DNA of 64,000 bases from Gluconobacter morbifer G707 (GTDB taxonomy: Bacteria > Pseudomonadota > Alphaproteobacteria > Acetobacterales > Acetobacteraceae), in the NCBI RefSeq assembly GCF_000234355.1, contig NZ_AGQV01000013.1:1-64000 (forward strand). The letters are read 5' to 3'. This document shows, piece after piece, positions 15,351-30,997 of the stretch. The notes beneath the pieces were generated by a model. It was not told where the DNA came from. It did no database searches and saw only the letters and a program-made list of their open reading frames with translations. Each line of letters begins with the position of its first letter. Positions within the stretch are counted from its first letter, which is position 1. A program made the translations under genes and the position numbers.

Positions 15351-15371
15351 TTGGCATATTGCCATTAATTT
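15351..15371. promoter_or_regulatory. Candidate phage operator, left copy
   Basis: TGGCATATTGCCATTAATT (15352-15370) contains the dyad TGGCA-n3-TGCCA. It matches the copy at 16011-16029 at 18 of 19 positions. The two copies flank the XRE regulator gene. Further TGGC/GCCA half-sites lie around it (for example TGGCTGCCA near 15386). Confidence 0.55.
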
Positions 15372-15555
15372 ATCGTTAATCGGTGGCTGCCATGGGGGGA
15401 GCCGGGAGGAAAGGGAAGGTTTCCGGGCGATGCAGGATGCTTCGTACAGAACTGGAAATGTTCCTGATTTGTTCATTCCATCAGCAAAGTGGTCATGTTG
15501 CTTTTGGCTGACTGGGGGAGCGCACGAATGCGTATGGAATCCAGCGGAACCACAT

Positions 15556-15948
15556 CTAGTGGATCTCCTCGTCTGGTCTCTTGGGCGGAGCAGGTGTGTC
15601 AGAAGACGTGTTTTTGTCCGTGTGCTGAGCCATGTCTTGCCGCTGGAGCACCAGTTCTGGGTGCAGGGCAGCCAGCCGCAGGGCCAGTTCTTCGTCGGTA
15701 CGACCGTTCAGGACGCCTTTCAGAAGAAAGTCTGTCGAGACGCGGAGCCGGTTCGAGAGGGCGGCGATGAGGAAGACGCTGGGTGCGCGATCGCCACGCT
15801 CGATCTTGTTGAGGGTGGAGGCATCGACCCCCAGAAGCCGGGCACATTCGCTCTGGTTGGGAATGACGAGTTCCCGGGCCCAGGAGATGCGTGTGCCGAT
15901 GGCTTGCTGGAGAGTGGTGAGGGTGTCCGAGCGCTTGTGTTTGGCCAT
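15556..15948 (-). CDS. XRE-family regulator of the phage locus (repressor-like)
   Basis: A protein of 130 residues with one helix-turn-helix of the Cro/CI (XRE) type at about residues 15-75 (NQSECARLLGVDASTLNKIERG). The tail after residue 105 is hydrophilic and low in complexity. It has no peptidase domain, so it is not a LexA-like self-cleaving repressor. It is transcribed opposite to the structural genes, the usual arrangement for a phage master repressor, and is flanked by two near-identical candidate operators. It probably binds these and represses the rightward genes, which is inferred. Confidence 0.8.
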   Translation of the reverse strand: MAKHKRSDTLTTLQQAIGTRISWARELVIPNQSECARLLGVDASTLNKIERGDRAPSVFLIAALSNRLRVSTDFLLKGVLNGRTDEELALRLAALHPELVLQRQDMAQHTDKNTSSDTPAPPKRPDEEIH

Positions 15949-15999
15949 GTGTCCTTTCTAGCAATGGCTTTATGCCAAATCCAGAAGAAGTTTTTTTTG

Positions 16000-16029
16000 C
16001 CACCATTTGTGGCATTTTGCCATTAATTG
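16000..16029. promoter_or_regulatory. Candidate phage operators, right cluster
   Basis: A perfect dyad GCCAC-CATTT-GTGGC (16000-16014) overlaps TGGCATTTTGCCATTAATT (16011-16029), the near-copy of the site at 15352. A further dyad TGGC-TTTAT-GCCA lies at 15966-15978. The cluster sits between the XRE gene start and the first rightward gene, where a repressor would block both promoters. Confidence 0.55.
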
Positions 16030-16063
16030 TAATAAACTACTGAAAATCAGAAGGATATTGAAA

Positions 16064-16363
16064 ATGAGTCAGATGAAATCGGGTCCTGTGCTGCGGCGGG
16101 TTTCGGCGAGTGCTGTGGCGGCCATGCTGGCTTCTGATGGCTGGAGGCCGAAGCAGGGCGGGCGACGCCGTGGACGTAAGCCGGGGCGGAAGAAGGCTGT
16201 TACGTCCGTTGCGGGGCGGCCGGGGCTGGAGCGCGATACTGTGGAGGCGTTGCCGGCGGGCCATCCCGTTACATGGAAGGCGCTTTGGGGAACGGATCTT
16301 GCGCCTGCGTTTCCGGGGCTGCGTCCGATGGGAAGCCATGAGACGATCCAGGAGATTCACTGA
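16064..16363 (+). CDS. Small basic phage protein with AT-hook-like motif
   Basis: A protein of 99 residues, first in the rightward transcript. The segment GGRRRGRKPGRKK followed by GRPG resembles an AT-hook or other minor-groove DNA-binding stretch. The N-terminal part (RRVSASAVAAMLASDGWRP) could form a short helix. AAGGAT lies about 6 bp before the ATG, supporting this start over an upstream one. Its stop overlaps the next start by one base (TGATG). Being next to the repressor, it may be an early regulator. I do not recognise a family. Confidence 0.55.
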   Translation: MSQMKSGPVLRRVSASAVAAMLASDGWRPKQGGRRRGRKPGRKKAVTSVAGRPGLERDTVEALPAGHPVTWKALWGTDLAPAFPGLRPMGSHETIQEIH

Positions 16364-16881
16364 TGCAGGGTGTGGTGAGGGAAGATCTTTCCGGAAAGGC
16401 GGGAATGATGAGGAAAGGGATTGGACCGACGCCGGAACGGATGCGTCATTCCGATATGGTTTCTGTGGGGCAGGCGGTCCGTGTCGTGAATGCCGTGCAG
16501 GCCATGTATGACGCTGGTGACATCGGGGATGACGAAGTGGCGGCTGCGGACCGGTGGTACCGGGAATATGTTTTTGCGGCGATCGGGGTGGTGGAAGAGG
16601 GGCCGTCCGATGGGCGGGTTCGTGAACGGGGGGATGTTCACACCTGGATGCTGGGGCGGGGGAAATGCTCTGCGCGGATCACGGCGATTCGTGAACGGCT
16701 TGGGTTATGCGCGCATATCCGGCTGGAGATGATGCTGGCGCGTGAGATGTCTTTTTCCAACATGGCGCGCCATCTGTATCCGGCTCTTTCGGAAGGACGT
16801 GCGCGCATGAAGGTCTCGGCGCAGTGTGCGTTGATTCTGGAACAGTTGGTGCATTGTTATGTGGTGATGTCAAAGAAATAA
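16363..16881 (+). CDS. Phage protein of unknown function, regulator-like
   Basis: A protein of 172 residues, coupled to the previous gene by a one-base overlap. The C-terminal third (SFSNMARHLYPALSEGRARMKVS) has the look of a helix-turn-helix. The middle contains a conserved-looking block, AADRWYREYVFAAIG. Proteins of this size and place in alphaproteobacterial prophages are sometimes late-gene activators, which is a guess from position. An AT-rich stretch and a terminator follow, separating it from the packaging genes. Confidence 0.5.
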   Translation: MQGVVREDLSGKAGMMRKGIGPTPERMRHSDMVSVGQAVRVVNAVQAMYDAGDIGDDEVAAADRWYREYVFAAIGVVEEGPSDGRVRERGDVHTWMLGRGKCSARITAIRERLGLCAHIRLEMMLAREMSFSNMARHLYPALSEGRARMKVSAQCALILEQLVHCYVVMSKK

Positions 16882-16975
16882 TAAATATAAATAGGTATGT
16901 TAAAATTTTTTGTTGCATTATGAACGCGGTTTTTGTATAAGAAATATACATTGATAAACTTTATATTTTATTCAT

Positions 16976-17012
16976 AAGGTCGCCTTACGAAATGTGAGGC
17001 GGCCTTTATTTT
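16976..17012 (+). terminator. Terminator between early and packaging phage genes
   Basis: A 10-bp stem with one G-T wobble (AAGGTCGCCT/AGGCGGCCTT) and an 11-base loop is followed by TTATTTTT. It lies in an AT-rich gap and separates the early gene pair from the next transcription unit. Confidence 0.65.
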
Positions 17013-17026
17013 TGGAAGTTTGGTCA

Positions 17027-17458
17027 ATGCTTCGGAAAAATGAAATTTCACCCGGGGATATTGTCCGTGTGGGGGCTCAGGTAATGGTTGTTCTTCAGAT
17101 TGAAGACGCCCTGACGGCCTGTCCGCTGGTATCAGTCAGCGAGCCGCATCACCGGGCGGATGTGGAGCTGGAATGGCACGAACTGGCTGAAGCCGGGCTG
17201 GCGCGGCTGGATGTGCGGTGTCGGGCCATTCCCTGTGAGCGTCGGGGGCACGGGCTGGAACGGCTCGGACGGATGTGCGGTGTGGCGTTCCGGCGCATTG
17301 AAGGAAAGGCCCTGCGCGAGGCGCGGCAGCGGCGCCTGGAGACGGATGCGAGAAGGTCGGGAAAGAGAGTGCGGCAGTCTTCTGCACCTGTCCGGGCGGT
17401 GTGGATGGAGGGGCAGGCCCTGATGAGTCGACGGGAAAGCAGACTGGCCGGCGGTTGA
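17027..17458 (+). CDS. Phage protein of unknown function
   Basis: A protein of 143 residues from ATG at 17027 (MLRKNEISPGDIVRVGAQVM). The opening resembles the small beta-barrel start of several unrelated families, so it is not diagnostic. The second half is very rich in Arg and Glu (RMCGVAFRRIEGKALREARQ, then RRLETDARRSGKRVRQ) and probably forms a charged helix. It lies just before the terminase small subunit, where phages often keep small DNA-binding or HNH-type genes. No HNH motif is visible. Confidence 0.45.
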   Translation: MLRKNEISPGDIVRVGAQVMVVLQIEDALTACPLVSVSEPHHRADVELEWHELAEAGLARLDVRCRAIPCERRGHGLERLGRMCGVAFRRIEGKALREARQRRLETDARRSGKRVRQSSAPVRAVWMEGQALMSRRESRLAGG

Positions 17459-17490
17459 AGCCCGGGGCAGAGGGAAGAGGTTTGGGACAG

Positions 17491-17937
17491 ATGGGTGATG
17501 AGAAGCCTGAAAAGATCAGCGCGTCGGAGCTTGCCCGGTGCCGGCAGGAGAAGTTTCTTCAGCATCTGGCGATAAGCGGAAATGTTTCGGAATCAGCACG
17601 TGTTGCGGAGGTTCAGCGCAGTACGCTTTATCACTGGAAGGAGACGGATTCCGAATTTGAGGCGCTGTGGGACGATGCGCTGGAAGAGGCGGTCGATGCC
17701 ATGGAGGCGGAAGCCCGCCGTCGCGCTGTTGATGGGTACGATGAGCCTCTGACCTATGCGGGGAAGGTGGTCTGTGATCCTGAGACCGGTAATCCCCTTG
17801 TGCGCAAGCGTTACAGCGACGGATTGATGGCGTTTCTGCTGCGGGCGCATCGCCCTTCCCGTTTCAGGATGTTGAAACAGGAGGAACCTGGAGGGCCGAT
17901 TTCCATCAATATTACCAGTGATGACAGCGCCCTTTAG
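17491..17937 (+). CDS. Phage terminase small subunit
   Basis: A protein of 148 residues that should recognise the packaging site on phage DNA and recruit the large subunit. It has an N-terminal helix-turn-helix (FLQHLAISGNVSESARVAEV, then QRSTLYHWKE) like other small terminases and transposase-like DNA binders. A central segment, EAVDAMEAEARRRAVDGYDEP, is typical of phage small subunits. It overlaps the large-subunit start by about 20 bp, supporting the assignment. The ATG at 17491 is preceded by a purine-rich stretch. An in-frame start at 17401 would add a low-complexity leader. Confidence 0.75.
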   Translation: MGDEKPEKISASELARCRQEKFLQHLAISGNVSESARVAEVQRSTLYHWKETDSEFEALWDDALEEAVDAMEAEARRRAVDGYDEPLTYAGKVVCDPETGNPLVRKRYSDGLMAFLLRAHRPSRFRMLKQEEPGGPISINITSDDSAL

Positions 17938-19429
17938 ACTGAATGACGGGCAGTGTGAGGCGGTCAGGCTGCTGGGTGGCCCGGCACGACATATCCTGTT
18001 GCGGGGTGGATCACGGTCTGGGAAAACGTTTGTTCTGATCCGCGCCATTGTCATCCGTACGCTGAAGGAACCGGGAAGCCGGCATGGAATATTCCGGCAT
18101 CGCCTGACGGCGCTGAAGGCTTCCGTGTTGCGGGATACGTTTCCGAAGGTCATGCGGCTCTGTTTTCCGGACGTTGGCTGGAAACTGGAGCGTCAGGATT
18201 GTGTCGTGACGTTTTCAAATGGCTCCACGATCCTGTTTGGGGGGCTGGATGACGAGCAGCGGACGGAGAAGATACTCGGTCTGGAATTTGCGACGGTTTA
18301 TCTGAACGAAGCGAGCCAGATCAGTTGCGGGGCGCGCAACATGCTTCTGATGCGGCTGGCGCAGAAATGCGGGCTGGTGGCGCGGGAGTATATTGATGCC
18401 AATCCGCCTTCGATGGGGCATTGGCTGTATGCGCTTTTTGAAGCCGGGATCGAGCCGAAATCCGGAGAACCTGTTCCGGACCGTTCTCTTTACACGACGA
18501 TGGTCCTGAATCCTGCGGTCAACAGGCAGAATCTGAGCCCGGAATATCTGGCGGGGCTTGAGGCGCTGCCAGAGCGGGAAAGGCGGCGGTTTCTGCATGG
18601 CGAGTATCAGGCTGCTGTTGAGGGTGCGCTGTGGCGGATCGAGACGTTCCGTCGGGAGGCGGCCGTAACGGCGGTCAGTCGGGCGGAAGTGGCGGCGCGG
18701 ATGCGGCGGATCATCGTGTCGGTTGATCCGTCTGGTGCGGCGGGGCCTGAGGATTTCCGGTCTGACGAAATTGGCATTGTCGTGTGTGGTGTCGATGCTG
18801 ACGGGATCGGGCATGTGCTTAAGGATCTGTCTGCGCGGGACAGTCCTGCGGGCTGGGCCGGACGGGCCTTGCGGGCCTTCGATGACTGGAGGGCCGAGCG
18901 GATCGTGGCGGAGCGCAATTTCGGTGGGGCGCTGGTGGAAGGCACGATCCGCAGTGTGCGGGCGCATGCGCCTGTGCGGCTTGTAACGGCGGCGCGGGGC
19001 AAGGCAGCCCGGGCGGAGCCTGTCGCGGCACTCTATGAGGTTGGCCGGGTGATTCATCATGGCCGTTTTGCGGTTCTGGAGGATCAGCTCTGTCATTTTT
19101 CGGTCAGCGGGTATCGCGGGCCACGGTCTCCGGACCGGGCGGGTGCGTCGGCGCGGACGGCGCGTCTGCTGGCGCTGAAACGTGTGCTGGATGGTACGCA
19201 GTATGATGTGCTGCCGCACCCGTTCTCGATGGAGCGGTCTGGCGGGGGGAATATATTCCCTTGTCCAGCAGGCGTCCGGCGGCGCGGACCAATCTGTGCC
19301 GGACGGTGGTCGATGAGTCGGTTTCCCTGCTGTTCGGAGACATGCACTGGCCGCATCTGGTGGCGGATGACCCGAGGGTCGGGGACGCCATGGGGGTTTT
19401 TACGTCCCAGACCCGGCTGGCTTCCCTGA
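17918..19429 (+). CDS. Phage terminase large subunit, C-terminus fused into portal sequence
   Basis: The packaging ATPase and nuclease. Walker A is LLRGGSRSGKT at about residues 27-37, Walker B-like VYLNEASQ lies near 127, and the nuclease domain starts at IIVSVDPSGAAG near 267. True terminase sequence ends at about GYRGPRSPDRAG (near 19143), where intact relatives continue with more nuclease-domain sequence. Instead the frame runs into ALKRVLDGTQYDVLPHPFSM, which looks like a portal N-terminus, then goes out of frame at a G-run and stops at 19429. A deletion of the terminase end and portal start is the simplest reading. The start is GTG 17918 or ATG 17921. Confidence 0.75.
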   Translation: MMTAPFRLNDGQCEAVRLLGGPARHILLRGGSRSGKTFVLIRAIVIRTLKEPGSRHGIFRHRLTALKASVLRDTFPKVMRLCFPDVGWKLERQDCVVTFSNGSTILFGGLDDEQRTEKILGLEFATVYLNEASQISCGARNMLLMRLAQKCGLVAREYIDANPPSMGHWLYALFEAGIEPKSGEPVPDRSLYTTMVLNPAVNRQNLSPEYLAGLEALPERERRRFLHGEYQAAVEGALWRIETFRREAAVTAVSRAEVAARMRRIIVSVDPSGAAGPEDFRSDEIGIVVCGVDADGIGHVLKDLSARDSPAGWAGRALRAFDDWRAERIVAERNFGGALVEGTIRSVRAHAPVRLVTAARGKAARAEPVAALYEVGRVIHHGRFAVLEDQLCHFSVSGYRGPRSPDRAGASARTARLLALKRVLDGTQYDVLPHPFSMERSGGGNIFPCPAGVRRRGPICAGRWSMSRFPCCSETCTGRIWWRMTRGSGTPWGFLRPRPGWLP

Positions 19430-20517
19430 TGATGGAGGCGGCGCGGCTGGGCTCCGTGGGGTCCGTGGCGATCCTGTTCGAGGTTTCGGGTGGTGTGCCG
19501 CGGCTGTCGCTTCTGGAGACGGCCTATCTGACGCCGTTCTGGGATGAGGCAAGCGGGGAACTGCTGCGGGTTGAGGAGCGCTTTCTTGTCCGAGGGCGGG
19601 AACTGGCGGCGCAGGGATATCCGATCAGCGAGGATCTGCTGGGGGCGCAGTTCTGGTGGCAGCGTGTCTGGACGGCGATGGACTGTGCGGTGTCGGTGCC
19701 GTGTCCTGTTGGGACATCGGGGGGAAGCCGGGACGAGAGCCGGTCTGTACGGCATGGGCTGGGGTTTGTTCCGATTGTCTGGATCCGGAATCTTGCGGGG
19801 CCTTCAGGACGTGATCCGGAGGGGGAATGCACGTTCGAGCGGGCGATCGATACGGTGATCGAGGCAGATTACCTGCTGTCCTAGGCGGGGCGGGGTCTGA
19901 AATACGGGTCCGATCCGACGCTGGTGCTCAAGACGGGAGGGTATTCTGATGGAATGGCGCATCAGGGGGGCGCTGCGTCCGCCCTGACGCTGCCACCGGA
20001 AGGGGATGCCAAGCTGCTGGAAATCAACGGCAATGCGGCTGGGGCGGTGCTCGATCATTACCGTGAGCTGCGACAGGTTGTCCTGGAGCAGTTGCACGGC
20101 AACCGGGCGCATGGCGAGCGCATTTCGGCCGCGCAGTCCGGCAAGGCCATGGAGATGATGTGCCAGCCGCTGATCTGGCTGACGGACAGGCTGCGTCATT
20201 CCTACGGAGAGGGCGGGCTTCTGGCTGTTTACCGGATGGCGTGCCGGTTTTCCTGTGTGCTGGAGAACGGGCTGCGGCTTGGCGGGCGGCTGGTGAAAGA
20301 TCTGCCGTACTGCCGGATGGGGCTGCGCTGGCCGGGCTGGTTCCCGGCGACGGATGCGGAACTCCTGTCGTTGGCGCAGGGGCTGATGACAGCGGTGGCC
20401 CACGGAATTCTGAGCCGCGAAACGGCGGTTCGGATGTTTGCGACGTCTTCTGGCAGTTCCGACCCTGAAGGGGAATGGCGACGGCTGGAAACGTGGAATG
20501 CTTCACGGGAAGCGTAA
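19150..20517 (+). pseudogene. Phage portal protein, frameshifted and amber-interrupted
   Basis: The portal forms the dodecameric ring through which DNA enters the head. The N-terminal part (RVLDGTQYDVLPHPFSMERS) is read in the terminase frame. At 19244-19249 a run of six G shifts the frame, and seven G would restore GGGEYIPLSSRRPAARTN. The correct frame then runs to TAG at 19882-19884, inside YLLS-stop-AGRGLKYGSDPTL, and stays open to 20517. Changing that TAG to CAG would restore the frame with a glutamine. Unless both lesions are sequencing errors, or are suppressed, no functional portal is made. Confidence 0.75.
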
Positions 20518-20534
20518 TGTGTGACGGAGGTAAG

Positions 20535-21029
20535 ATGTCCGGAGCGGATGAAGACGTGGATGATGTCGTGGCCCTGCGGCAAGCACTGAAGCAGGCGCAG
20601 GAAGAAATGGCGACAATGCGCCAGGAAATGGCGGAGGCCAGTGCAAGACAGGAGGCTTTGCAGCGCAGTCACGAGGAGGCGGTGAACCGTATCAGGCAGG
20701 ACAGTGATCATGAGGTCATTGTTGCTGCGCTGAAGGCTGAGGCGGTCCGTTTCGGGGCGCATAACCCGGATGATGTGGTGCGGCTCATTGATCTTGGAGG
20801 GCTGGGCCGGGACGATACGGGCGTAGTGACGGGACTGGAGGAAGCGCTGGAGCAGGCGCGTCGTGAGCGGGCCTATCTTTTCGGAAACATGGTGAAGCCC
20901 GGCTCTTTCAGTGGAAACACGATGGGTGTGTCGGCGCCACGGCCGGGAGAGATCGAACCCTTTGATGCGCGCAGTGCCAGCGAGACGGATTACGAAACGC
21001 GCAAGTGGCAGTTTCTGGCTCAGGGCTGA
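20535..21029 (+). CDS. Phage scaffolding-like protein
   Basis: A protein of 164 residues with a long acidic coiled-coil region (about residues 12-60: QALKQAQEEMATMRQEMAEA). This is typical of capsid scaffolding proteins that shape the procapsid and are then removed. It lies between portal and major capsid genes, where scaffolds usually sit. The ATG at 20535 is preceded by GGAGG, better than the upstream in-frame ATG at 20517. There is no serine-protease signature, so it is not a combined protease and scaffold. Confidence 0.7.
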   Translation: MSGADEDVDDVVALRQALKQAQEEMATMRQEMAEASARQEALQRSHEEAVNRIRQDSDHEVIVAALKAEAVRFGAHNPDDVVRLIDLGGLGRDDTGVVTGLEEALEQARRERAYLFGNMVKPGSFSGNTMGVSAPRPGEIEPFDARSASETDYETRKWQFLAQG

Positions 21030-21098
21030 GACGCCGGAGCGGATTTGACGGGGTCTGTAATGGGCCGGTTTCATAAATGCATTTTCGGAATGAAATGA

Positions 21099-22478
21099 AT
21101 GAGCATCGATAATTTTCCTGTTCAGTTGCAGGCGGCCATCCAGCAGGGTTTTCTGGCGCGCGAATTTGAAAACGGGCTGAAATCCCGTCTGGGCTTCCGT
21201 CAGGTGGCGGATCGGGAGATTTTTCCCAATGCGATCGGTGAAACCCTGACCAAGACGCGCAAGAGCCTGAAGGCACCGGTGACGACGCCGATGAACCCGA
21301 GCAGCAATACGAATTTTGACAATGGTCTCAGCCCGTCGGGCTGGGCGATCGAGCAGTATACGCTGTCTATCAACCAGTATGGCGATACGATCGACCTGAA
21401 CATGGTGACGAGTGGCGTGGGGATTGCGTCACAGTTTCTGGCCAATGCCAATACCAATGGCATTCAGGCGATGCAGTCCCTGGATCGGCTGGCGCGCAAT
21501 ACGCTGTTTGGTGGGGCGCAGAATGGTGTGGGTGGATATCTGGGCGGCAATACGCGGGTACGTGTGGCGCTGGGTGCGGATGGAGATACCATTCAGGTGG
21601 ATGATATTCGCGGTTTTGAACGCGTCATTGTCAATGGCCAGGTGACGTCTGTCGGGACCAGCAATGGCATGACGGTCACGGTCGGATCGGATGTCTATAC
21701 GCTTGTCAGCGTGACGGCGGATGCGACGAATGTTTCGACGGCGCCGGGCGGTGTTTCCGGGCAGATGACATTCTCGTCCGCTGTGACCGTGGCAGACGGG
21801 GCGGAAGGGCAGGCCGTTGTGGCGGCGACGGCGCCGCTGGTGATCCGTCCGCATGGTCGTCTGACGACGGCGGCCCTTCAGACCGCAAGTGCGAACGGAC
21901 TGGCGGATACGCTGGGTATCCAGCAGGTTCTGGCGGGTGTTGCGACGCTGCGCCGGAATAACGTGCCGATGATCAACGGGGCGTATCACTGCTACGTGGA
22001 TGACATCCAGCTTCTGTCCCTGTTCCGCGATGATGATTTCAAGCATCTGTATCGCGGGGCCTATGGGTCCGAGGAGTATCGGTCCGGGCAGATTATCGAA
22101 CTTCTGGGTGTCCGGTTCATTCCGACGACAGAGGCGCCGCAGCAGGCTTCCCTGGGGGCCGGGACGATCCATCGTGCGCTGCTTGTGGGGCAGGGCGCGC
22201 TGATCGAGTGTGACTGCTCGCTGACCGGGCATTCGGATATTCCCGATGCTGAGCGTGCGCTGATCGAGCTGGTGGATGGTGTGGCTATGGTGACGCGTGA
22301 GCCGCTGGACCGTTTGCGACAGATCATTGCGCAGTCCTGGTACTGGATTGGCGGTTTTGCGCTGCCAACGGATGTGACGGCGGATACGACGGTCATTCCC
22401 ACCGCGACGAACAGTTATCTCAAACGTGGTGTGGTGATTGAAAGTCTCGGGACGGATGCTCTCGGGCTGACGTTCTGA
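21099..22478 (+). CDS. Phage major capsid protein
   Basis: A coat protein of 459 residues. The N-terminal block (QAAIQQGFLAREFENGLKSR) and LTKTRKSLKAPV resemble the N4 gp56-like or P22-like coat families, which build HK97-fold shells without a protease domain. An inserted Ala/Thr/Val/Gly-rich segment at about residues 170-250 looks like a surface beta domain. The frame is intact, unlike portal. A terminator follows, as expected for the most abundant virion protein. Confidence 0.82.
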   Translation: MSIDNFPVQLQAAIQQGFLAREFENGLKSRLGFRQVADREIFPNAIGETLTKTRKSLKAPVTTPMNPSSNTNFDNGLSPSGWAIEQYTLSINQYGDTIDLNMVTSGVGIASQFLANANTNGIQAMQSLDRLARNTLFGGAQNGVGGYLGGNTRVRVALGADGDTIQVDDIRGFERVIVNGQVTSVGTSNGMTVTVGSDVYTLVSVTADATNVSTAPGGVSGQMTFSSAVTVADGAEGQAVVAATAPLVIRPHGRLTTAALQTASANGLADTLGIQQVLAGVATLRRNNVPMINGAYHCYVDDIQLLSLFRDDDFKHLYRGAYGSEEYRSGQIIELLGVRFIPTTEAPQQASLGAGTIHRALLVGQGALIECDCSLTGHSDIPDAERALIELVDGVAMVTREPLDRLRQIIAQSWYWIGGFALPTDVTADTTVIPTATNSYLKRGVVIESLGTDALGLTF

Positions 22479-22505
22479 AGGTCATTCTGCCGAAGGTTAT
22501 TCCGG

Positions 22506-22531
22506 GCCCCTGCCAGTTGGCGGGGGCTTTT
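22506..22531 (+). terminator. Terminator after major capsid gene
   Basis: A stem GCCCCTGCC/GGCGGGGGC with a 4-base loop is followed by TTTT (22528-22531). It would limit read-through from the capsid gene into the neck and baseplate genes. Confidence 0.7.
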
Positions 22532-22548
22532 CTTTCAGGGAGATGGAC

Positions 22549-22950
22549 ATGTCTGGGACGGTAGGATTATCGACGGTTCCCCTGACGGATGGGGAAAAGA
22601 TGGATGTCCGTCGGTTCTGTGGGTATCCGGCGATCGGAACCCGCGAGACGGGGCAGGAATCCTGGCGTTTCTTTCAGGTGGAGGGCGCGCTGGAATGGCG
22701 GATGAATGGCCTGTCGGGCGCGGAGCTTCAGCAGGTGAGGCTTTATCTGACGCAGCTTTATCCTCTGGAAACGGCCATTCCGGGAGTGTCGGACAATCTG
22801 GATACGGCGCAGGCGGCGAGCTGGTATCATAACGGCCGGGAAGTTCAGGACCGCGTGATGCTGTTCACGCTCTGGCGGCGGCGGTTATGTGCGTTTCTGG
22901 GCGTGGCCGGAGGGCTGGAGCTTCAGGGCGGCCGGGAAATCGTCATCTAG
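22549..22950 (+). CDS. Phage head-completion or neck protein
   Basis: A protein of 133 residues from ATG at 22549, preceded by AGGGAGATGGAC. It is mostly helical (SGAELQQVRLYLTQLYPLET), and the C-terminal part reads DRVMLFTLWRRRLCAFLGV. It lies directly after the capsid gene, the usual place for head-tail connector proteins such as gp6-like adaptors. The family assignment is by position and size only. The frame is intact. Confidence 0.5.
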   Translation: MSGTVGLSTVPLTDGEKMDVRRFCGYPAIGTRETGQESWRFFQVEGALEWRMNGLSGAELQQVRLYLTQLYPLETAIPGVSDNLDTAQAASWYHNGREVQDRVMLFTLWRRRLCAFLGVAGGLELQGGREIVI

Positions 22951-22960
22951 GGAGACTGGC

Positions 22961-23560
22961 ATGAGGCAGGGCCTGATTGCGTCCCGTATTGCCCGTGGAT
23001 ATGCAAAAGCGGCTTCCGTTCTGGGATGTGTGGGCGCGCAGTATCGGCCGGCCAGCGGGATCGATCCCATGAAGACGGTTTACGCGCAGCCGACGCTGGC
23101 TTTCGATTCGGATCCGGAATTTTCACTGTCACGGCAGCGCAACTGGGGCGTTGTGGCGGATTATGTGCTGACGGACCGGCGGGACGATACGCTGGTCGGT
23201 GATATTCTGGTCTGTGACGGGAAGACGTATTTCGTGACGGCCGTGGATGTTCTGCGGCCACCGCTCTGTGTGGCGTGCAGTCGGGTCGTGACGGTCAGTG
23301 GTGTGACCGGAACGCAGGAAACGGTCGTCAGCGGGGCACCGGCGGCCATTGTGCTGAAGGCGCGGGGGGAAGCATCCGGAAGTGGTGTGCCGGGTGCGGC
23401 CCGTCCGGGACAGTTCCTGCTGTATCTGCCGCTTCTGCCGGGGGTTGTTCTTCAACCGTACATGACGGTGACGACGGATCTGGGAACGACCTACACGGTC
23501 AATGCGGTGGAGATGTCCGATTATGGCATCCGCTATACGATGTCGATGCAGCAGGTCTGA
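22961..23560 (+). CDS. Phage neck or connector protein (unknown family)
   Basis: A protein of 199 residues, ATG at 22961 with GGGAGA just upstream. It is mainly beta-strand, with blocks such as FFVTAVDVLRPPLC-like strands, QFLLYLPLLPGVVLQPYMTV and DLGTTYTVNAVEMSDYGI. This pattern suits small virion proteins at the neck. No enzyme motif is seen. The gene is packed tightly between its neighbours and in the same transcription unit. Confidence 0.45.
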   Translation: MRQGLIASRIARGYAKAASVLGCVGAQYRPASGIDPMKTVYAQPTLAFDSDPEFSLSRQRNWGVVADYVLTDRRDDTLVGDILVCDGKTYFVTAVDVLRPPLCVACSRVVTVSGVTGTQETVVSGAPAAIVLKARGEASGSGVPGAARPGQFLLYLPLLPGVVLQPYMTVTTDLGTTYTVNAVEMSDYGIRYTMSMQQV

Positions 23561-23571
23561 GGAGGAAAGCG

Positions 23572-24429
23572 ATGGCGGATGCCTCGGGGATCGGGCTGGC
23601 GCTGGCCTATTGCTGTGCGACGGTTCTTTATCCGGATGGTCTTTCAGGCGTGTCGGTTACGGGGCGTCAGACGGTTGTGCGTCGCGGGTGGCTGTTGCCG
23701 AGTGATCTTTTTACGGCTGAATCTGTTCGGAACGAAATTAATTTCGTTACTGCAACTATTGCGTCGTCCCGGAATGAGGCATCCGGCTGGGCGGAGCCTC
23801 TGGGACAGCCCTGGGAGGTTCTGGAGCGGATTTCTCCGACTGTCAGTGTCTCCAGGGAAGATGGGGAGACGGTGCGGATCATTTTTCCGCCGGATGGGAC
23901 GGAGGCCTGTGGAGTTGTGGGGCTCTGGTTGGATGATGGTTCGGCTGGTGCGCTCGCGTCCTGTGCGGTTGCGGTGAAGGCGGATGACACGGTGGCTGGT
24001 GTGGCGTCCGTTCTGGCGGGAATGCTGGAGGGAGCGGTTGCGCAGGGCGATACGGTATGGGTGCCGGGGCATATGCTGCAGGGCCGTATGGCGGGATATG
24101 GGCAGTCCGTCCAAGTCAGCCGGCGTCAGGCGCAACGGTATCGGGTTTCTGTCTGGACGGCGGATGCGATGGTTCGGGAAGGTCTGTCTTCCACGCTCGA
24201 TACGGCGCTGGCGGGTCTGAACTGGATCACGACGCTGGACGGACGTTCGGCGCAGTTGCGTTTTTTGGACGTGCAGGATGTGGACACCATGCAGAACCAG
24301 GCGATTTACCGGCGGGATTTTCTGTATGAGATCGTGTTCGACACGCTTCAGGTCTGCTGGGCGGCGGATATGCTGTTCGGGGTGGGGACAGGGCTGTGGC
24401 GTGGGTCTGCTGCATGGTGTGACGGATAG
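23572..24429 (+). CDS. Phage structural protein, possible neck or tail-completion protein
   Basis: A protein of 285 residues, ATG at 23572 with GAGGAAAGCG upstream. The C-terminal half (AQRYRVSVWTADAMVREGLS, ALAGLNWITTLDGRSAQLRF, YRRDFLYEIVFDTLQ) has the alternating strand and helix pattern of tail-terminator or neck proteins. It is too short and lacks the features expected for a contractile sheath, and it is not a tape measure. It lies where sheath and tube genes would be in P2-like phages. The exact role is unknown. Confidence 0.45.
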   Translation: MADASGIGLALAYCCATVLYPDGLSGVSVTGRQTVVRRGWLLPSDLFTAESVRNEINFVTATIASSRNEASGWAEPLGQPWEVLERISPTVSVSREDGETVRIIFPPDGTEACGVVGLWLDDGSAGALASCAVAVKADDTVAGVASVLAGMLEGAVAQGDTVWVPGHMLQGRMAGYGQSVQVSRRQAQRYRVSVWTADAMVREGLSSTLDTALAGLNWITTLDGRSAQLRFLDVQDVDTMQNQAIYRRDFLYEIVFDTLQVCWAADMLFGVGTGLWRGSAAWCDG

Positions 24430-24748
24430 TGCGTCTTACACTGCGCAGGCGGCGTTCGGGCTTGGAGAAGGCGTGTACATGATTGCCGCCGGGCCGGCTT
24501 ATGACACGATTACCAATGCGGTTTCCGTCAAGGTGTCGAGCGGGCTGGATTCATCGGCGGTCAAGCTGATGTTCGGGGACTGGCTGTGGTGGAATGACGA
24601 TACGAACGGCATGATGCTTGTCAGGCCGCAGGCTTTTGCGGGGGGTATTTCACTGTTCCATATTGCGGCGCGGGAACTCGGGGATGCCTGTCAGTGGTGG
24701 CGTGTTGCTGAGGTAAACGGTCTTCCTGATGGGGTTACGGAGACCTGA
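24401..24748 (+). CDS. Phage tail protein X-like (LysM-type)
   Basis: A protein of about 115 residues with no good ATG near the expected start. GTG at 24401 (VGLLHGV) or 24419 (VTDSASY) are candidates, both inside the previous gene's end. The C-terminal AARELGDACQWWRVAEVNGL closely resembles the LysM-like core of P2 gpX-type tail proteins, which may touch peptidoglycan near the hub. It overlaps the next, D-like gene by 20 bp. Order X then D matches P2-like baseplate modules. Confidence 0.55.
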   Translation: MGLLHGVTDSASYTAQAAFGLGEGVYMIAAGPAYDTITNAVSVKVSSGLDSSAVKLMFGDWLWWNDDTNGMMLVRPQAFAGGISLFHIAARELGDACQWWRVAEVNGLPDGVTET

Positions 24749-25629
24749 AGTTCGGGTGTTGATGGATGGGGGTGAGGACAGTGATCTTTTTCCGGAACGG
24801 TTTGAAATCGATTCAAACCGTTATCAGGCCTGTGATGCTGCGTTTGTGCGGTTTGCGGTCAGGCCCGTTGCGGATGTGACGGAGCGGCGCTGGTTTGAGG
24901 AGAGTTGTCCGACACGGAAATGGCTTGTTGTGCAGATGCGGGACCGTGAGGCGGAAGAAACGGACTGGCAGATCCTGTTTGAAGGGTTTGTGGACCATCT
25001 CCAGTATTCTCCCGAGCAGGGCTTCCTTGACGTGGAATGTCGGGATGCGCTGGCGGCGCTCATGGATCTTCGGGTGCGGGACGGGTGGCTGAACCATACC
25101 GTGTCTGATCTTCTTTTGGTTATGGCGGGCGCGGCCGGGTTGTCGGCGGATATCAGCCTGCCGGACGATCAGGCGTCATGGATGAGCGGGCAATTCTGGC
25201 AGGTGGAATACAGGCGCAGTGCCCTGCTGTCGCAGCATCGTTTCCAGACGGCGGCGGATCTTGCCTTCACTCTGGCGTCGTGGGATTCCCGTCAGCGGAG
25301 CGGGACGCATGCCTATTACGACGGGGTGCATTTTTCGCAGGATGCGCCAGCGGAGGGGGGGTGTTCATTCCTTTCGTGTTCCGGGGCGGCGGCAGGACGA
25401 TCTCAGGCGGTTGGCCAAGGGAAAATATGACCGGATTGCAGCGCATGGTCTGTCAGTCCGGTTGTCTTTGCCCGGTGTGCCGGGGCTGGAGCCACGTCAG
25501 TTCCTGAGAGTGGCGGCCGGGCGTGAGGAGCGGGTTCTGGGTGTGGATCAGGTGATATCCCGTTTTTCGCTGGAAAAGGGGTTCGTACAGGAAGTTGTCC
25601 TGAGAGATCGTGGAGGGAGCGTAACGTGA
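24729..25629 (+). pseudogene. Phage tail hub protein, gpD-like, frameshifted in a G-run
   Basis: The N-terminal 209 or so residues (MGLRRPEVRVLMDGGEDSDL) resemble late-control gpD/gp27 hub proteins, including DWQILFEGFVDHLQYSPEQG. At 25355-25361 seven G put the reading out of frame, so the annotated frame ends at 25430. Removing one G gives PAEGGVHSFRVPGRRQDDLR and an open frame to 25629, whose stop overlaps the V-like start. The single-base change and the protein-like 3' half indicate one original gene. It could also be a slippery or phase-variable site, or a base-calling error. Confidence 0.7.
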
Positions 25630-26249
25630 GTGATGCACGGTTTGATGCGGTGTCGCTTCTGAACAGGACGGCTCACACGGTTTTTGGAATCGTTTCGGCG
25701 GTCGATCCCGTGAATCATGCGGTCAGGGTCAGGCTTCAGCCGGATGACGTGGAGACGGGCTGGCTTCCCGATATGGGGGGTGTGCAGGCCGGGGATCTGC
25801 GTCTGTCCTGTCCTTCGGCGCCTGGCACGCATGTCGTGCTGCAGCCTCTGGAAGGTGATGGAGAGCATCTGGTGGTGACGGGGGCTGTTTACGACACGGT
25901 TGTCACGGCACCGGTTTCGCCCTGGACAGGTCGTGTTGCGCAGCCGGGAGAAATGCTTGTCCGGGCTGGATGTGGTGCGCCGCCTGTCACGCCGGGACAG
26001 CTGCCGGGCGGGCCATCTGGCAATGGGGACTGGTGGCATGTCGGGCCGGATGATGTGGCGGTCGGGGCGGGAAATGCCCGAATGGTCATACAGAATGATG
26101 AAATCCGGTTGTCAGTCGGGGGGGGGGCGCTGGTTCTGGGACCGTCAGGTCTGACGGTAACGGGCGGCGATGTCAGGACGGATCAGCATTCCCTGAACGA
26201 TCATGTTCCTGTTCTTGGGACTGAAAAGACGGAAGGACCGACCGGATGA
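25626..26249 (+). CDS. Phage baseplate assembly protein V-like (spike)
   Basis: A protein of 207 residues with an OB-fold-like N-terminal region (TVFGIVSAVDPVNHAVRVRL, then GWLPDMGG). A beta-rich C-terminal part follows, with repeated short strands (RMVIQNDEIRLSVGGGALVL), like spike proteins gpV/gp45 that puncture the outer membrane. It begins with GTG at 25626 overlapping the previous stop (GTGA). It contains a run of ten G at 26118-26127 that stays in frame here, a site prone to slippage. It overlaps the W-like gene by 4 bp. Confidence 0.75.
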   Translation: MSDARFDAVSLLNRTAHTVFGIVSAVDPVNHAVRVRLQPDDVETGWLPDMGGVQAGDLRLSCPSAPGTHVVLQPLEGDGEHLVVTGAVYDTVVTAPVSPWTGRVAQPGEMLVRAGCGAPPVTPGQLPGGPSGNGDWWHVGPDDVAVGAGNARMVIQNDEIRLSVGGGALVLGPSGLTVTGGDVRTDQHSLNDHVPVLGTEKTEGPTG

Positions 26250-26605
26250 GTGCGATCGGGCATTTTTTCGGGGCCGATCTCACGCTGGATCATGGGAGGC
26301 TGGAGCTTGTTTCGGATGTGGAGCAGGTCCGGCAGGGTCTTTTGCGCAGGCTTCTGACCATACCCGGACAATATATCTGGCAGCCGGATTATGGAGCCGG
26401 GCTGGCTGCAATGGTCGGGCAGGTTGTTGATACGCGGACTATGGAAGCGGTCATTCAGGCGCAGGTTATGGTGGATGCCGGCGTGGATGCCTCTCAGGGC
26501 GTGACGGTGACCGTGACGGCTCAGGACGGGGGAGGCTGTGTGTGCCGGGTCTCTTATGTGGATGCCGCAAGCGGGCAGCAGCAGGATTTCGGTTTTTCTT
26601 CCTGA
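26246..26605 (+). CDS. Phage baseplate protein W-like (gp25 family)
   Basis: A protein of 119 residues matching the gp25/gpW baseplate wedge family (LTLDHGRLELVSDVEQVRQG, then LLTIPGQYIWQPDYGAGLAA). These proteins join wedge to hub in contractile tails. It overlaps the V-like gene by ATGA. The family is a hallmark of contractile systems, which makes the lack of recognisable sheath and tube genes in this locus notable. Confidence 0.8.
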   Translation: MSAIGHFFGADLTLDHGRLELVSDVEQVRQGLLRRLLTIPGQYIWQPDYGAGLAAMVGQVVDTRTMEAVIQAQVMVDAGVDASQGVTVTVTAQDGGGCVCRVSYVDAASGQQQDFGFSS

Positions 26606-26645
26606 AAAAGGTACGGGCCATGGGCCGGTGTGCCAGGGTGATGTA

Positions 26646-27785
26646 ATGTCTCTTTCTCTTCGTTCGTTTGCGACGACGGTCTCCACGGCAGTGGCGACGG
26701 CGCAGGCGTCCTGTACTCAGCTGATCGATGTTTCGGTCGGTTCTCCGGCCCGTGCGCTTGTGGAGAGTGTCAGCGGAATTGGTCTGTGGCTTCAGTATCT
26801 GCTGCTGCAACTGATGATGCGGACGCGGCTGTCCACGTCCTCGGGGGCAGATTGTGACAGCTTCATCAATGATTTCGGGATGACACGCCTTCCGGGGACA
26901 GCCGCTACGGGCATGGTTGTCATGACGTCCTTTTCACCGGGGAGCCAGTCGGCGGTCGTTGTGCCGGGCGTGAAGGTACGTACGGTCTCCGGTCTGTCCT
27001 TTTCGGTGGTGAAGGATAGCACGCTTGCAGGCTGGTCTCCGGATGCCGGAGGGTATGTCCGGCCGGCCGGGGTGGGCGCGGTATCCGTGCCGGTGCAGTG
27101 TGATGTTGCGGGATGTTCCGGGAATGTGTCGGCGGGTGCACTCTGTCTGATGGGAACAGCCGTTTCCGGGATTGATACGGTCACCAATGAATCCGCGCTC
27201 CTGAATAGTTCCGATCAGGAAACGGATGCACAGGTTCGGGCGCGTTTTCCGCTGTGGCTTGCGGCAAAGGCGACTGCCAGCCGGATGGCGGTCGGGAATG
27301 CGGTGGAAGGTGTCCAGACCAATCTGCGCTATGCCCTTCGGGACGGCGTTGCTGCGGATGGAACATCCCGTTGCGGGTATTTCACGGCGGTCATCAATGA
27401 TGGAAGTGGCGCGCCATCCGATCAGCTGCTGGCGAACGCCTATGCGGCGATTGATGCCGTACGGGCGCTGGGCGTCGGGTTCTGTGTGCAGCCTCCCGCC
27501 GTGATGACCATGGATGTTTCCATGACGGTCACCGTTCCGGCTTCGGTCCCGGTGACGCAGGCCCGGAGCGCCATTCAAACGGCCATAATGCAGGATATTG
27601 CTGCTACGGACGTGGGGGACGGGTATGCGTATAGCCGTCTGTCCTATCTGGCCTATGTGGGGGCCGGTGTGTCGGTGACATCGGTTCTGAATGTTCTCCT
27701 GAATGGTGAACAGGCCGATATTCCCGCGAATGGTCAACAGGCATTTGTTGCCGGAAATATCCAGATCACCGTTATCCAGAACTGA
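26646..27785 (+). CDS. Phage baseplate protein J-like
   Basis: A protein of 379 residues of the gpJ/gp6 baseplate wedge family. The N-terminal helical part (ASCTQLIDVSVGSPARALVE) is followed by the conserved SGADCDSFINDFGMTRLPG. Later come the repeated beta domains, with NESALLNSSDQETDAQVRAR and a C-terminal VTSVLNVLLNGEQADIPANG. ATG at 26646 is preceded by AGGGTGATGTA. The frame is intact. It lies between W-like and fibre-like genes, as in P2 and Mu. Confidence 0.82.
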   Translation: MSLSLRSFATTVSTAVATAQASCTQLIDVSVGSPARALVESVSGIGLWLQYLLLQLMMRTRLSTSSGADCDSFINDFGMTRLPGTAATGMVVMTSFSPGSQSAVVVPGVKVRTVSGLSFSVVKDSTLAGWSPDAGGYVRPAGVGAVSVPVQCDVAGCSGNVSAGALCLMGTAVSGIDTVTNESALLNSSDQETDAQVRARFPLWLAAKATASRMAVGNAVEGVQTNLRYALRDGVAADGTSRCGYFTAVINDGSGAPSDQLLANAYAAIDAVRALGVGFCVQPPAVMTMDVSMTVTVPASVPVTQARSAIQTAIMQDIAATDVGDGYAYSRLSYLAYVGAGVSVTSVLNVLLNGEQADIPANGQQAFVAGNIQITVIQN

Positions 27786-27831
27786 ACGGACTGGCTTTCG
27801 TCCCTGACGGGATGAAGCCGTGAGGAAGGCC

Positions 27832-29143
27832 ATGCCAGTATTCAATACGTATTCGAAACTTGATACCCTGACCGGCGATGAGGTTCTGGTTCTGGCGGAT
27901 GCCACGGGCAAACGGACTGTCAATGCGACGGCTTCCCAGATTGCCGGGGCGCCAGCCGTTTCGCAGGCGACAGGGGAATTCTACGCGGATCGTGGCGCAC
28001 ATGTCAGTCGCCTTGCGGACCGGCTCCTGGTTGGTGTGGTGGCGGAAAATCCTGCCCTGAGCGACCGGGAGGCGTCATCCGCCAGTGACTGGCTGTCCGA
28101 GACCATGGCGAAGACGTCCATTGGTCCGTGGGCCTTGCAGGACGCACAGTGCGCGTCTGTCGCCCGGTATGGGAACAGTGCTTTCGTTGCGGCTTCCCGA
28201 ACGTCGGATGCAAAGGAAGGAGAAGCGACGCTGGGGTTTCAGCCCAGCTCCATCGGGGTTGCGTCCTGGGGCGTCGCCGATGATACGACCGTGCCCACGA
28301 CGACGACGGCCTATGCCTATTACGGGGAAGCGTGGCGTCTGCCGAATGTCAATTATCAGCCGACTTTCTGTATGGAGCTTGAGGCCGTCAATCTGGGTGG
28401 GCTGGCGATCGGGCAGTCCACGCCGTACTCACCGAATGTTGGCGGGGGAGTCTATGCGCTTCAGCTTGGTGCAGGGGGCGGACAGACATCCGGAACATCG
28501 GACGCGGCGGCGGGGATCGTGTTCGTTTCCAAATCCGAATGCGTGGCAGACGGGGATTGTCTTCGGGGCGACGGCCCTGAGCGGGACGGACGGGAAAGAC
28601 ACCGGATATGGCTCGGCTGTTTCGCTGGCGCGGAACCATGCGCTGGAATGGCATACGCCTGAAACCGTGTCGGGCCAGACGGGTGGAAATGTTGGAGCGT
28701 TCATCCGCTCGACCGTGACTGAGCATGCCAGTGGTGTGCGGCAGGAATTCGTGGATGATGGAATCCTGTTCAGCAATATCGAGGGGGCCACGCTTTTTTC
28801 CGTCGCGAGTTCGGAAAATCCGACGAATATGCTTCAGGTTCAGGCCGGAACCGGGACACAGGCGGCAGGGCTCTATGTTCAGGCGGGTCAGGATGGCTCG
28901 ACCAATCTGGGGCTTTTCCCGGGGGCGGGTGGAGAGCTGCAGATCACGTCTCCTGTTTCCAACGCGGGCGGGGCTTTGCCCGCGACGGCTGATGGCGGAT
29001 TTCTGCACATCAACATCAACGGAGCGGATTACCGGATTCCATTGGTGAGCGATGGCTGTAGTTTACGACCGTCAGGGCGAACCTTTGCAGGCCACGGATG
29101 GCAAGGCGCTGCTGGATACGGGTGTTATCCCCGGATCGATTGA
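27832..29143 (+). pseudogene. Phage fibre-like or receptor-region protein, frameshifted
   Basis: This begins at ATG 27832 (MPVFNTYSKLDTLTGDEVLV) after GAGGAAGGCC. The first frame runs to about 28530, where the run AAA at 28531-28533 puts it out of frame (stop at 28662). With two A instead of three it reads GIVFVSNPNAWQTGIVFG and stays open to at least 29040 with FLHININGADYRIPLV. The end is uncertain because the frame continues into the next gene. The protein is rich in Gly, Ser and Thr and likely sits at the baseplate tip. Placement between J and I is unusual for P2 order. Confidence 0.6.
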
Positions 29144-29738
29144 TGATTTTGCGAACCGTCTGAGAAGTCTGCTGCCGATCGGATGGTTTCCTGCGCCTCC
29201 GCAGGGGCTGGAAGAGGAACAGGCGCCTGTTCTGGTGGCGATGCTGCGTGGTTTTGCGTCGGTGCTGGCGGGTATCTGGACGCTGGCTCAGGATTGCGAA
29301 AGCCAGATGCGGCTTTCAGACATGAGCGGTGGTTTTCTGGACATGGCCGCCGAGGATTATTTTGGCAGCGGGGAACTGCCGCGCCAGACGCAGGAAAGCG
29401 ATTCCGCATATCATGCACGCATCGTCTCGTCCCTGATTGCGACGAAAAATACGCGGCGAGCGGTTCGGGATGCGCTGTTGGGGGTGACCGGTGTGGAGCC
29501 AGTTCTCATTGAGCCGCAGAACGCCAGTGACTGTCATGCCTTCGGGACGGGAAATGCCCCTGCCCTGGGGGGCGGGTATGGCTATGGCTGCGCGGGGCTG
29601 CGTTACGGCAGCCTGCAGGGTGGGCAGTTCTTTGTGGAAACGGGGATGGGATCGGCTTCCGGCAGGGAGGCTGTTCTGCGGGTTATTGAACAGACGAAGG
29701 CCATAGGCGTGACGGGCTGGGTCAGGATGGAGACGTAA
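29052..29738 (+). CDS. Phage tail protein I-like (DUF2313/YmfQ type)
   Basis: A protein of 228 residues like P2 gpI and Mu gp48/YmfQ, which close the baseplate and help attach fibres. The N-terminal part contains FANRLRSLLPIGWFPAPPQG and the typical DFFDM-like segment RLSDMSGGFLDMAAEDYFGS. Its start overlaps the end of the fibre-like frame. The stop overlaps the next ATG by one base. The frame is intact. Confidence 0.72.
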   Translation: MAVVYDRQGEPLQATDGKALLDTGVIPGSIDDFANRLRSLLPIGWFPAPPQGLEEEQAPVLVAMLRGFASVLAGIWTLAQDCESQMRLSDMSGGFLDMAAEDYFGSGELPRQTQESDSAYHARIVSSLIATKNTRRAVRDALLGVTGVEPVLIEPQNASDCHAFGTGNAPALGGGYGYGCAGLRYGSLQGGQFFVETGMGSASGREAVLRVIEQTKAIGVTGWVRMET

Positions 29739-30988
29739 TGGATCGGGCAATAGTTTATGCGGGTTCGGTTCCGCTCGATACGGATCTTCTTCGGGTCGGT
29801 CGGCACGGGAAAAGCAGCATCGGGCAGATGGCCGACATGGTTTACGGTTCGGGTGTTACGGCAGCGACCGGTCTGACCTGCGCCCTGTCTTCGGACAGTC
29901 TGGCGGTGACCGTCGGGGCGGGCTCCATCACGGCGCCGGGCGTCATGGATGTGCAGACGCTGGGAGGGAATGGCGGCGGCCTGGAAGCGGATGGCGCCAC
30001 GGTGACGTGCCAGTATATCAATCCGGCCGCCCAGACGGTCATGCTGGTGGGAAGCGGCGCGACCTATACGGTTTTTGCCGTCTGTTCCGAGCAGGACGTT
30101 GACCAGACCCTTCTGCCATTTTTCAATGTTTCCAATCCTGCGCAGACACAGGCCGGGATTGGTAATGACGGGACTGCGCTACCGACGCGGCGGCAGGCCG
30201 GCATGACGTTCGTGGTGTCTACCGTGGCCCCGCAGGCGCCGGCTGGCGGATGTGTCGTGGCGCTTTACACCCTGACGGTGGCGCAGGGGGTGACGACACT
30301 GGCGGGTATTACGCCCCAGCCGGAGCGTGTTTCTGGCCGACGCTTCCCGAACTGGCGACGCAGACTCTGCTGAAGGCGGTGGCTGAACCCATGGCCATCA
30401 TCATGGCAGACACATCCATGACCGTTCCAGCATGGGCAACGCGGGTTGAACTCCGGGCCATTGGCGGCGGTGGGGGTGGATCGTCCTCTCTTGCGACGGA
30501 TACGACAGGATCATTCTGCGGTGCCGGTGGTGGGGCGGGAGGCGATGCCTGGGGTGTTTATGCCGTCAGTCCCACAGGCGGGGGGCTATCCGTGACAGTC
30601 GGACGGGGCGGCCCTTCGGAGCAGACCGGCGGGCCGACGCTTGTGAGTTATGAGGGGCAGACCCTTCTTCAGGCTGAAGGAGGGCAGGGCGGACTGTTTT
30701 ACAGTACGGATGGCTCTGCGGGCGGGACGGGAGGTCTTGCCTCCGGTGGGACGCTCTGGGATCAGACCGGGACATCCGGTGGGGATGGCCAGAGCGGGGC
30801 TTATACGTTTTCAGGCTATGGGGGGCGGCCCCTGGGGTGGTGGTGGACGGTGCGGCAATCAGGCTGGCAAAGACGCTACCCGCTTTGGTGCAGGCGGCGG
30901 CGGTGCATATTCTGCGTCCGCAACAAATGTGCGCTCTATTGGCGGTAGCGGTTATCAGGGATGTGTTCTGTATCGTTTTCTGCCGTGA
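29738..30988 (+). pseudogene. Phage glycine-rich tail fibre-like protein with two frameshifts
   Basis: The first frame (MDRAIVYAGSVPLDTDLLRV) is read to about 30329. There TTT (30330-30332) would need a fourth T to give ERVFWPTLPELATQTLLKAV. The next frame is glycine-rich (ELRAIGGGGGGSSSLATDTT) and goes out again at six G (30820-30825). Removing one G gives YGGGPWGGGGRCGNQAGKDA, ending with SIGGSGYQGCVLYRFLP at 30988. Glycine-rich C-termini of this kind occur in phage tip proteins (adhesins). Both lesions are one-base indels. Confidence 0.65.
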
Positions 30989-30997
30989 CGTTACAGG

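Follow-up and report, generated by a model that had tools for sequence, protein, structure and literature searches.

Why would a phage-like locus carry genes for a head and for the baseplate of a contractile tail, but no recognisable tail tube, sheath or tape measure between them? The question is raised by a window of 64,000 nucleotides of Gluconobacter morbifer G707 (contig NZ_AGQV01000013.1, positions 1 to 64,000), where the initial annotation described such a locus at 15351-30990 and offered three readings: an unusual short virion with its baseplate fixed to the neck, a domesticated particle resembling a gene transfer agent (GTA), or a phage that lost its tail genes. As read from the sequence, the tail genes are missing because the window copy is broken, not because the virion is unusual. 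We consider it fairly probable that the window holds a decayed copy of a phage-derived, contractile and GTA-like element of acetic acid bacteria, about 20 kb long, vertically inherited and host-controlled.

Loss of the tail genes in the window copy

The open reading frame (ORF) at 24221-24745 encodes residues 219-306 of a sheath protein of 494 residues (66-81% identity to intact relatives), followed by residues 12-38 of the 69-residue X protein. The 285-residue frame before it stops matching its relatives at 24384, and sheath homology starts at 24386 in a different frame, continues for 88 residues and passes into X. The 285-residue protein corresponds to the first 266 residues of a protein of about 324 residues, whose end was lost at about 24387. 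Measured on the relative G004, some 0.9 kb is gone from the third neck gene to mid-sheath. A further 3.3 kb or so is missing between the sheath and X remnants, and with it tube, chaperones, tape-measure slot and U. The other 25 genomes of the genus (Gluconobacter in the sense of GTDB, Neokomagataea included) all keep a full-length open sheath, while in the window genome the remnant is the sole match to the element's sheath. Since the joints lie within the sheath gene and the X gene, and since none of the 25 other genus genomes lacks a full-length sheath, the proposal of a phage that lost its tail genes proved right for the window copy, in preference to an unusual virion.

The three proteins placed in the gap are encoded by real genes, with PHROG matches at E-values of 8e-38 (133 residues), 5e-51 (199 residues) and 3e-56 (285 residues), all to already catalogued phage families of unknown function, but the third is truncated. 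A hidden tube or tape measure among them was considered and rejected, since relatives have homologues of all three ahead of an intact sheath. The absence of any recognisable sheath from the gap, as first described, does not hold, as sheath residues 219-306 survive there. Intact relatives do carry tail genes in the gap, namely sheath, tube, chaperones, a short gene in the tape-measure slot, and U, an outcome that the initial annotation had itself set against its view. With these genes in relatives and tail remains in the window, the short virion had to be abandoned: a working particle with its baseplate directly on the neck has next to no probability. Such a particle would agree with the open frames of capsid, V, W, J and I, but the genes for portal, D, fibre and K412 (the gene between J and I) are broken, the sheath and X remnants mark a deletion, and the arrangement was seen in no relative examined.

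In the rest of the locus, Pfam, PHROGs and the relatives agree with the first assignment of terminase, scaffold, capsid and small neck-type proteins, followed by V, W, J, I and fibre. Portal, X and D genes are present as claimed but are not intact, the portal and D being broken and X a remnant. The frames noted between J and I are really one frameshifted gene of 412 residues, and the fibre gene is likewise frameshifted. Besides the deletion in the tail, the lesions comprise a loss at the terminase large subunit (TerL) and portal, a frameshift and a stop in the portal, a loss and a frameshift in D, and frameshifts in K412 and fibre. Eleven of 21 element genes are in one piece in the window, against 18 to 21 in 24 other loci, each tabulated for the same 21 genes with G023 as reference.

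The window locus is a pseudogene cluster, save for a small chance of assembly error. An assembly artefact as the cause of the gap, with intact tail genes in the strain, is very improbable. At 100% identity over 16,991 bases, IMG/VR record L164, the sole other one of this copy, would fit an artefact as well, as it very probably derives from the same assembly and offers no independent check. However, separate lesions, including the stop and several frameshifts, are spread over the locus, and no other piece of the element's sheath was found in a genome that is 99.98% complete. Two other Phage_sheath_1 genes of this genome (C18:115048-115512 and C12:11958-12446; L001 and L002) presumably belong to other prophages.

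The intact element, its inheritance and its promoter

The intact element comprises about 20 kb of head, packaging and contractile-tail genes. All 25 other genomes of the genus have J, as do 31 of 59 further relatives searched. All 21 genes are in one piece in 17 of the 24 tabulated loci, and the remaining seven keep 18-20; the causes there are a contig end (G024), a divergent fibre, terS, scaffold or U, and the defects of G018. The latter (L049) has a split W and is short of one chaperone gene, and may represent an early phase of the decay seen in the window. The same compact element occurs in Tanticharoenia, Brytella, Acidomonas, Asaia, Swaminathania and Ameyamaea. A function of the element is likely, because every genome of the genus except that of the window keeps a full-length sheath. 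IMG/VR lists many copies (L160, L165-L168, L170-L172 and others) as separate viruses of about 19-22 kb, and therefore virome catalogues may count a host organ as phage.

Family searches with most proteins of G023 (not every ORF) returned only structural and packaging functions, or no match. Among the proteins searched, no integrase, replication, lysis or early phage genes were recognised, nor any repressor, sigma factor, holin or endolysin. Between two short flanks in the window, no exact repeat of at least 12 bases was found that would suggest attachment repeats. The ORF in the tape-measure slot has 254-316 residues in the elements (24 ORFs; G033 omitted for its doubtful frame). In L066 and L070 (G005 and G011) it is full of short amino-acid repeats and still has about 300 residues. 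The K412 homologues, of 412 residues, are intact in the elements (e.g. L008:2694-3932); they gave no family match, and the structure model was useless (mean pLDDT 30). PDB sequence searches with tube and capsid profiles returned nothing relevant.

Distances among the elements (12 proteins) follow those among the hosts (dnaB, trpB, trpA and folC, taken by alignment) in 19 genomes of the genus, with a Mantel r of 0.95 that 0 of 5000 permutations reached; this set leaves out the window as well as G017, G019 and G022, in which the element is cut by contig ends. The main groups are common to host and element trees: Neokomagataea, the cerinus group and a group of 12 genomes. At the base of this last group both trees place the window and G. 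wancherniae, which form a pair in the element tree (84% support) and are unresolved in the host tree. Over 11-12 species pairs, the median dN/dS per element gene ranges from 0.012 (tube) to 0.15 (X), with 0.017 for capsid and 0.047 for sheath; dS is mostly 0.1-0.6 in the element and 0.2-0.6 in dnaB, and some pairs show higher values in tail genes (trpB is not used in this comparison). Within the fetched stretch, dnaB lies upstream of the element in 18 of 25 same-genus loci, some stretches ending at contig ends. Cytochrome and GMC genes are the downstream neighbours in 18 of 25 loci of the genus and 4 of 7 from other genera, and in none of three prophage-type loci. Judged on these comparisons, the intact element is under purifying selection, at a mostly shared site, and vertically inherited.

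The sequence TTAA-N7-TTAA, the CtrA consensus according to PMC9437464, stands upstream of the cluster in 22 of 22 same-genus regions, with 26 matches against a mean of 0.8 in mononucleotide shuffles; the shuffles preserved nothing beyond base composition, and the 22 regions are related by homology. Directly 5' of this CtrA-type box stands TTGAC-N4-TGGC-N5-GCCA. In 12 box-anchored sequences, 26 of 80 columns around the box and 0 of 220 outside are invariant, the TTAA columns being so through the choice of anchor. Six genomes of six other genera keep the TTAA half-sites with an altered spacer. The window retains the whole promoter; its TTAA-N7-TTAA is the sole one in the 64 kb, and its combination of -35 and operator is single in the window genome. 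This combination is found at the element in 14 of 14 genomes, and in 7 same-genus genomes it occurs once, at the element. Four other genera have one or two further operator sites each, five in all (the reversed-pattern control gave 0-2 per genome, 5 in total); some precede a glycoside-hydrolase-like gene, in Asaia and Swaminathania, and others fall in a stretch near-identical in Acidomonas and Brytella or in one other place. No co-regulated second locus with the same operator, and no shared regulon, was seen in the 14 genomes.

Of 36 compact elements, 34 have the composite promoter, operator plus CtrA-type box, and none of 25 related phages and prophages has it; in this second set, L113 offers just 366 bases before TerL, and a few further upstream stretches are short. 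The compact elements come largely from the same strains as the loci compared for gene content, and the two sets are not independent. The exceptions are Ameyamaea (L145), with the operator and no box, and Asaia prunellae (L132), with the box and no operator pattern. A CtrA homologue is encoded in the window genome (NCBIfam CtrA model 4e-96, next family 1e-47). Host CtrA may control the element through its promoter. CtrA control of GTAs is described as well established in PMC9437464, and PMC6363796 reports it for RcGTA, via GafA. The intact element is read as a domesticated contractile particle, probably linked to CtrA.

An ordinary temperate phage lineage, with a decaying prophage in the window, is an improbable explanation. 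In its favour, the head-tail module has homologues in phiKX1 and phiKX2, which are real temperate phages, and in longer loci of prophage type from Komagataeibacter, Asaia, Tanticharoenia and G. frateurii. However, the elements are compact and single copy at a shared site, with host-like distances and a promoter absent from prophages; early phage genes were not recognised in the proteins searched, and the elements form a clade apart, outside which lie phiKX1 and the G012b, G104 and G192 prophages that share the module. A PBSX-like nature is unlikely too, but clearly less so: the intact element would be a domesticated headed particle that packages host DNA and acts as a contractile bacteriocin on kin, and the window would hold a dead version. 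A contractile tail, host retention and conserved synteny are PBSX traits as well (PMC8347963, PMC12946183), and baseplate and X genes evolve faster than head genes, with dN/dS up to 0.15 against 0.017 for capsid. PBSX, however, is SOS-induced and has a repressor, sigma factor, holin and endolysin, the kinds of genes that the searches above did not recognise, and a LexA-type box (GTTC-N7-GTTC) occurs in only 4 of 22 upstream regions, the conserved box being CtrA-type.

To an ancient, vertically inherited GTA with a contractile tail in acetic acid bacteria, switched by CtrA at its own promoter, with a sister version in the wider Acetobacteraceae and with the window as a lineage losing it by tail deletion, we would give about an even chance. 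Under the favoured reading of a GTA-like element, the host CtrA phosphorelay would switch the cluster, and the terminase would load host DNA into small heads. The particles, whose tail length is predicted at roughly 35-45 nm by scaling on phiKX1/2, would be released by lysis functions encoded elsewhere and would inject host DNA into kin, as GTAs do. In the window strain, particle production and DNA transfer would no longer be possible. The suggestion of a domesticated, GTA-like particle is well supported as an evolutionary statement on the intact element, by site, host-like distances, purifying selection and promoter. The intact element is GTA-like in inheritance, gene content and promoter, without a GTA-like carbon bias, and is possibly a new kind of gene-transfer particle.

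Several observations weigh against the GTA interpretation. An amino-acid composition lower in carbon than that of phage homologues is a reported tendency of GTAs, though not a definitional one, and the carbon content of the element is not lower than that of prophage homologues (six proteins, 14 elements against 3-4 prophages). The host and element trees differ at the long-branched G005, at G. kanchanaburiensis and in the order of the frateurii group (G004/G012/G020). The family-level Mantel r falls only from 0.91 to 0.89 once three prophage-type loci are added, a test that separates poorly, and dN/dS of dnaB is even lower, 0.004. The CtrA homologue scores 321 bits, under the model cut-off of 350, and the first TTAA half-site overlaps the likely -10 and is perhaps kept partly for that. 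Finally, PMC8566455 reports particles after mitomycin C from only 15 of 177 strains, and tails of 72-95 nm in three Gluconobacter strains, longer than predicted for the element.

A capsid profile matched 87 of 198 good Acetobacteraceae genomes and 46 of 91 genera (the window's own included), prophages counted in, and matched once in 82 of 88 genomes with a match. In 12 distant loci the matching genes keep their order, and for these 12 alone the host-element Mantel r is 0.83 (0/5000). K412 had no match in the 12 loci; a CtrA-type box was found in 4 of them, at scattered places, and the loci run on into additional conserved genes. Distant clusters hold a second sheath-like ORF of about 640 residues, downstream of the tail genes (G234, oriented locus 26952-28883; G200, 27550 onward; L268/L269, L274/L275), and they also hold conserved ORFs of about 850 and 715 residues. 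These clusters may be a separate domestication. Phage-like contigs of a Sphagnum virome that align to Acetobacteraceae genomes, their nature left open in PMC12142844, possibly belong to this wider kind. Among the matches listed in a search of open-licence papers, no report of such an element in acetic acid bacteria was found.

Gene order and surroundings of the locus

The window starts at base 1 of the contig, and host genes fill the first 14.9 kb: an AsnC-type regulator, alanine racemase, sulfite reductase, a PALP enzyme, tryptophan synthase alpha, accD, a Mur-ligase/folC-like gene and dnaB. Downstream of the locus, cytochrome c and GMC dehydrogenase genes lie on the opposite strand. The GC skew is strongly positive over 1-31000, host genes included, and near zero beyond. 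Among the small genes that precede the terminase, u176 and u149 match PHROGs of unknown function, and the PHROG search gave no match for u213 and u107. TerL of the window has 84% identity to that of G004 across residues 1-410 of 438.

Table 1. Features of the phage-derived locus in the 64,000-nucleotide window.
Feature	Position	Strand	Basis
Conserved promoter: TTGAC (-35-like), TGGC-N5-GCCA operator, CtrA-type box TTAA-N7-TTAA at 15365-15379	15343-15379	+	
u213, u107, u176, u149, small genes 5' of terminase; functions unknown	15430-17455	+	tblastn with relatives
Terminase small subunit	17533-17934	+	Comparison with relatives; PHROG 4044 in relative G023
TerL; last ~28 residues lost, frame continues into portal	17918-19147	+	Pfam
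Broken portal gene: lacks its first 13 residues, shifts frame near 19250 and has a stop at 19882	19139-20514	+	
Scaffold protein	20520-21029	+	Pfam PF06810, 1e-15
Major capsid protein, intact	21099-22478	+	PHROG 1357, 4e-53; 90% identity to relatives
Neck-position protein, 133 residues, intact	22549-22950	+	PHROG 14539; 83% to relatives
Neck-position protein, 199 residues, intact	22961-23560	+	PHROG 14605
Third neck-position protein (285 residues); homology stops at residue 266/324 near 24387, remainder lost	23572-24429	+	
Tail sheath remnant, residues 219-306 of 494	24386-24649	+	81% to G023, E 3e-44
gpX remnant, residues 12-38 of 69, fused to sheath remnant	24650-24730	+	
gpD-type gene, internal loss and frameshift near 25350	24729-25617	+	
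gpV-type baseplate gene, open	25626-26249	+	Pfam PF04717
gpW/gp25-type baseplate gene, open	26246-26605	+	Pfam PF10934, weak match
gpJ-type baseplate gene, open	26640-27785	+	Pfam PF04865, 5e-26
K412, between J and I, function unknown; frameshift near 28533	27832-29050	+	Intact 412-residue homologues
gpI-type gene, open	29052-29738	+	
Fibre-type gene with frameshifts near 30325 and 30830; unbroken Gly-rich domain	29738-30985	+	

Comparison with known phages, gene transfer agents and PBSX

Only two phage records match the 285-residue protein, phiKX1 and phiKX2 (LC644975 and LC644976), and the same two are the sole matches to J over 80% of its length. These temperate myophages of Komagataeibacter formed contractile-tailed particles after mitomycin C, seen by transmission electron microscopy (PMC8566455). 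In gene order they parallel the element, with homologous portal, capsid (66%), neck genes, sheath, D, V, W, J and I, and in phiKX1 the sheath and further genes lie between the homologue of the 285-residue protein and D. They differ in size, about 53 kb, and phiKX1 has an annotated integrase and many early genes. Their TerL is not matched by that of the element, and the tape-measure position is taken by a 742-residue gene, in contrast to the 254-316 residues of the elements. Moreover, they have neither K412, J and I being adjacent, nor the CtrA-type promoter.

The tail of RcGTA is non-contractile. Those of BaGTA and BhGTA are described likewise in PMC9662315. The recognised GTAs (Rhodogtaviriformidae, Bartogtaviriformidae and Brachygtaviriformidae; PMC9662315) resemble the element as host-inherited structural clusters in which no self-propagation genes are recognised, and RcGTA also by its CtrA link (PMC6363796). 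Unlike them, the element has contractile tail genes and stems from another phage lineage. Its CtrA-type box stands at its own cluster, whereas RcGTA is reached through GafA.

PBSX and PBSX-like Bacillus particles (PMC8347963, PMC12946183) are, like the element, conserved and host-retained, with a head and a contractile tail. PBSX regions, however, have repressor, sigma factor and lysis genes and are SOS-induced (PMC8347963), while in the element none of these genes was recognised among the proteins searched and the promoter is CtrA-type. GTAs have been described with non-contractile tails, and PBSX is known as a bacteriocin, although it is a headed contractile particle that the host retains. 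A contractile, host-inherited element found across acetic acid bacteria, whose promoter points to the known regulator of GTAs, makes it testable in these tractable industrial bacteria whether contractile tails, too, became gene-delivery devices.

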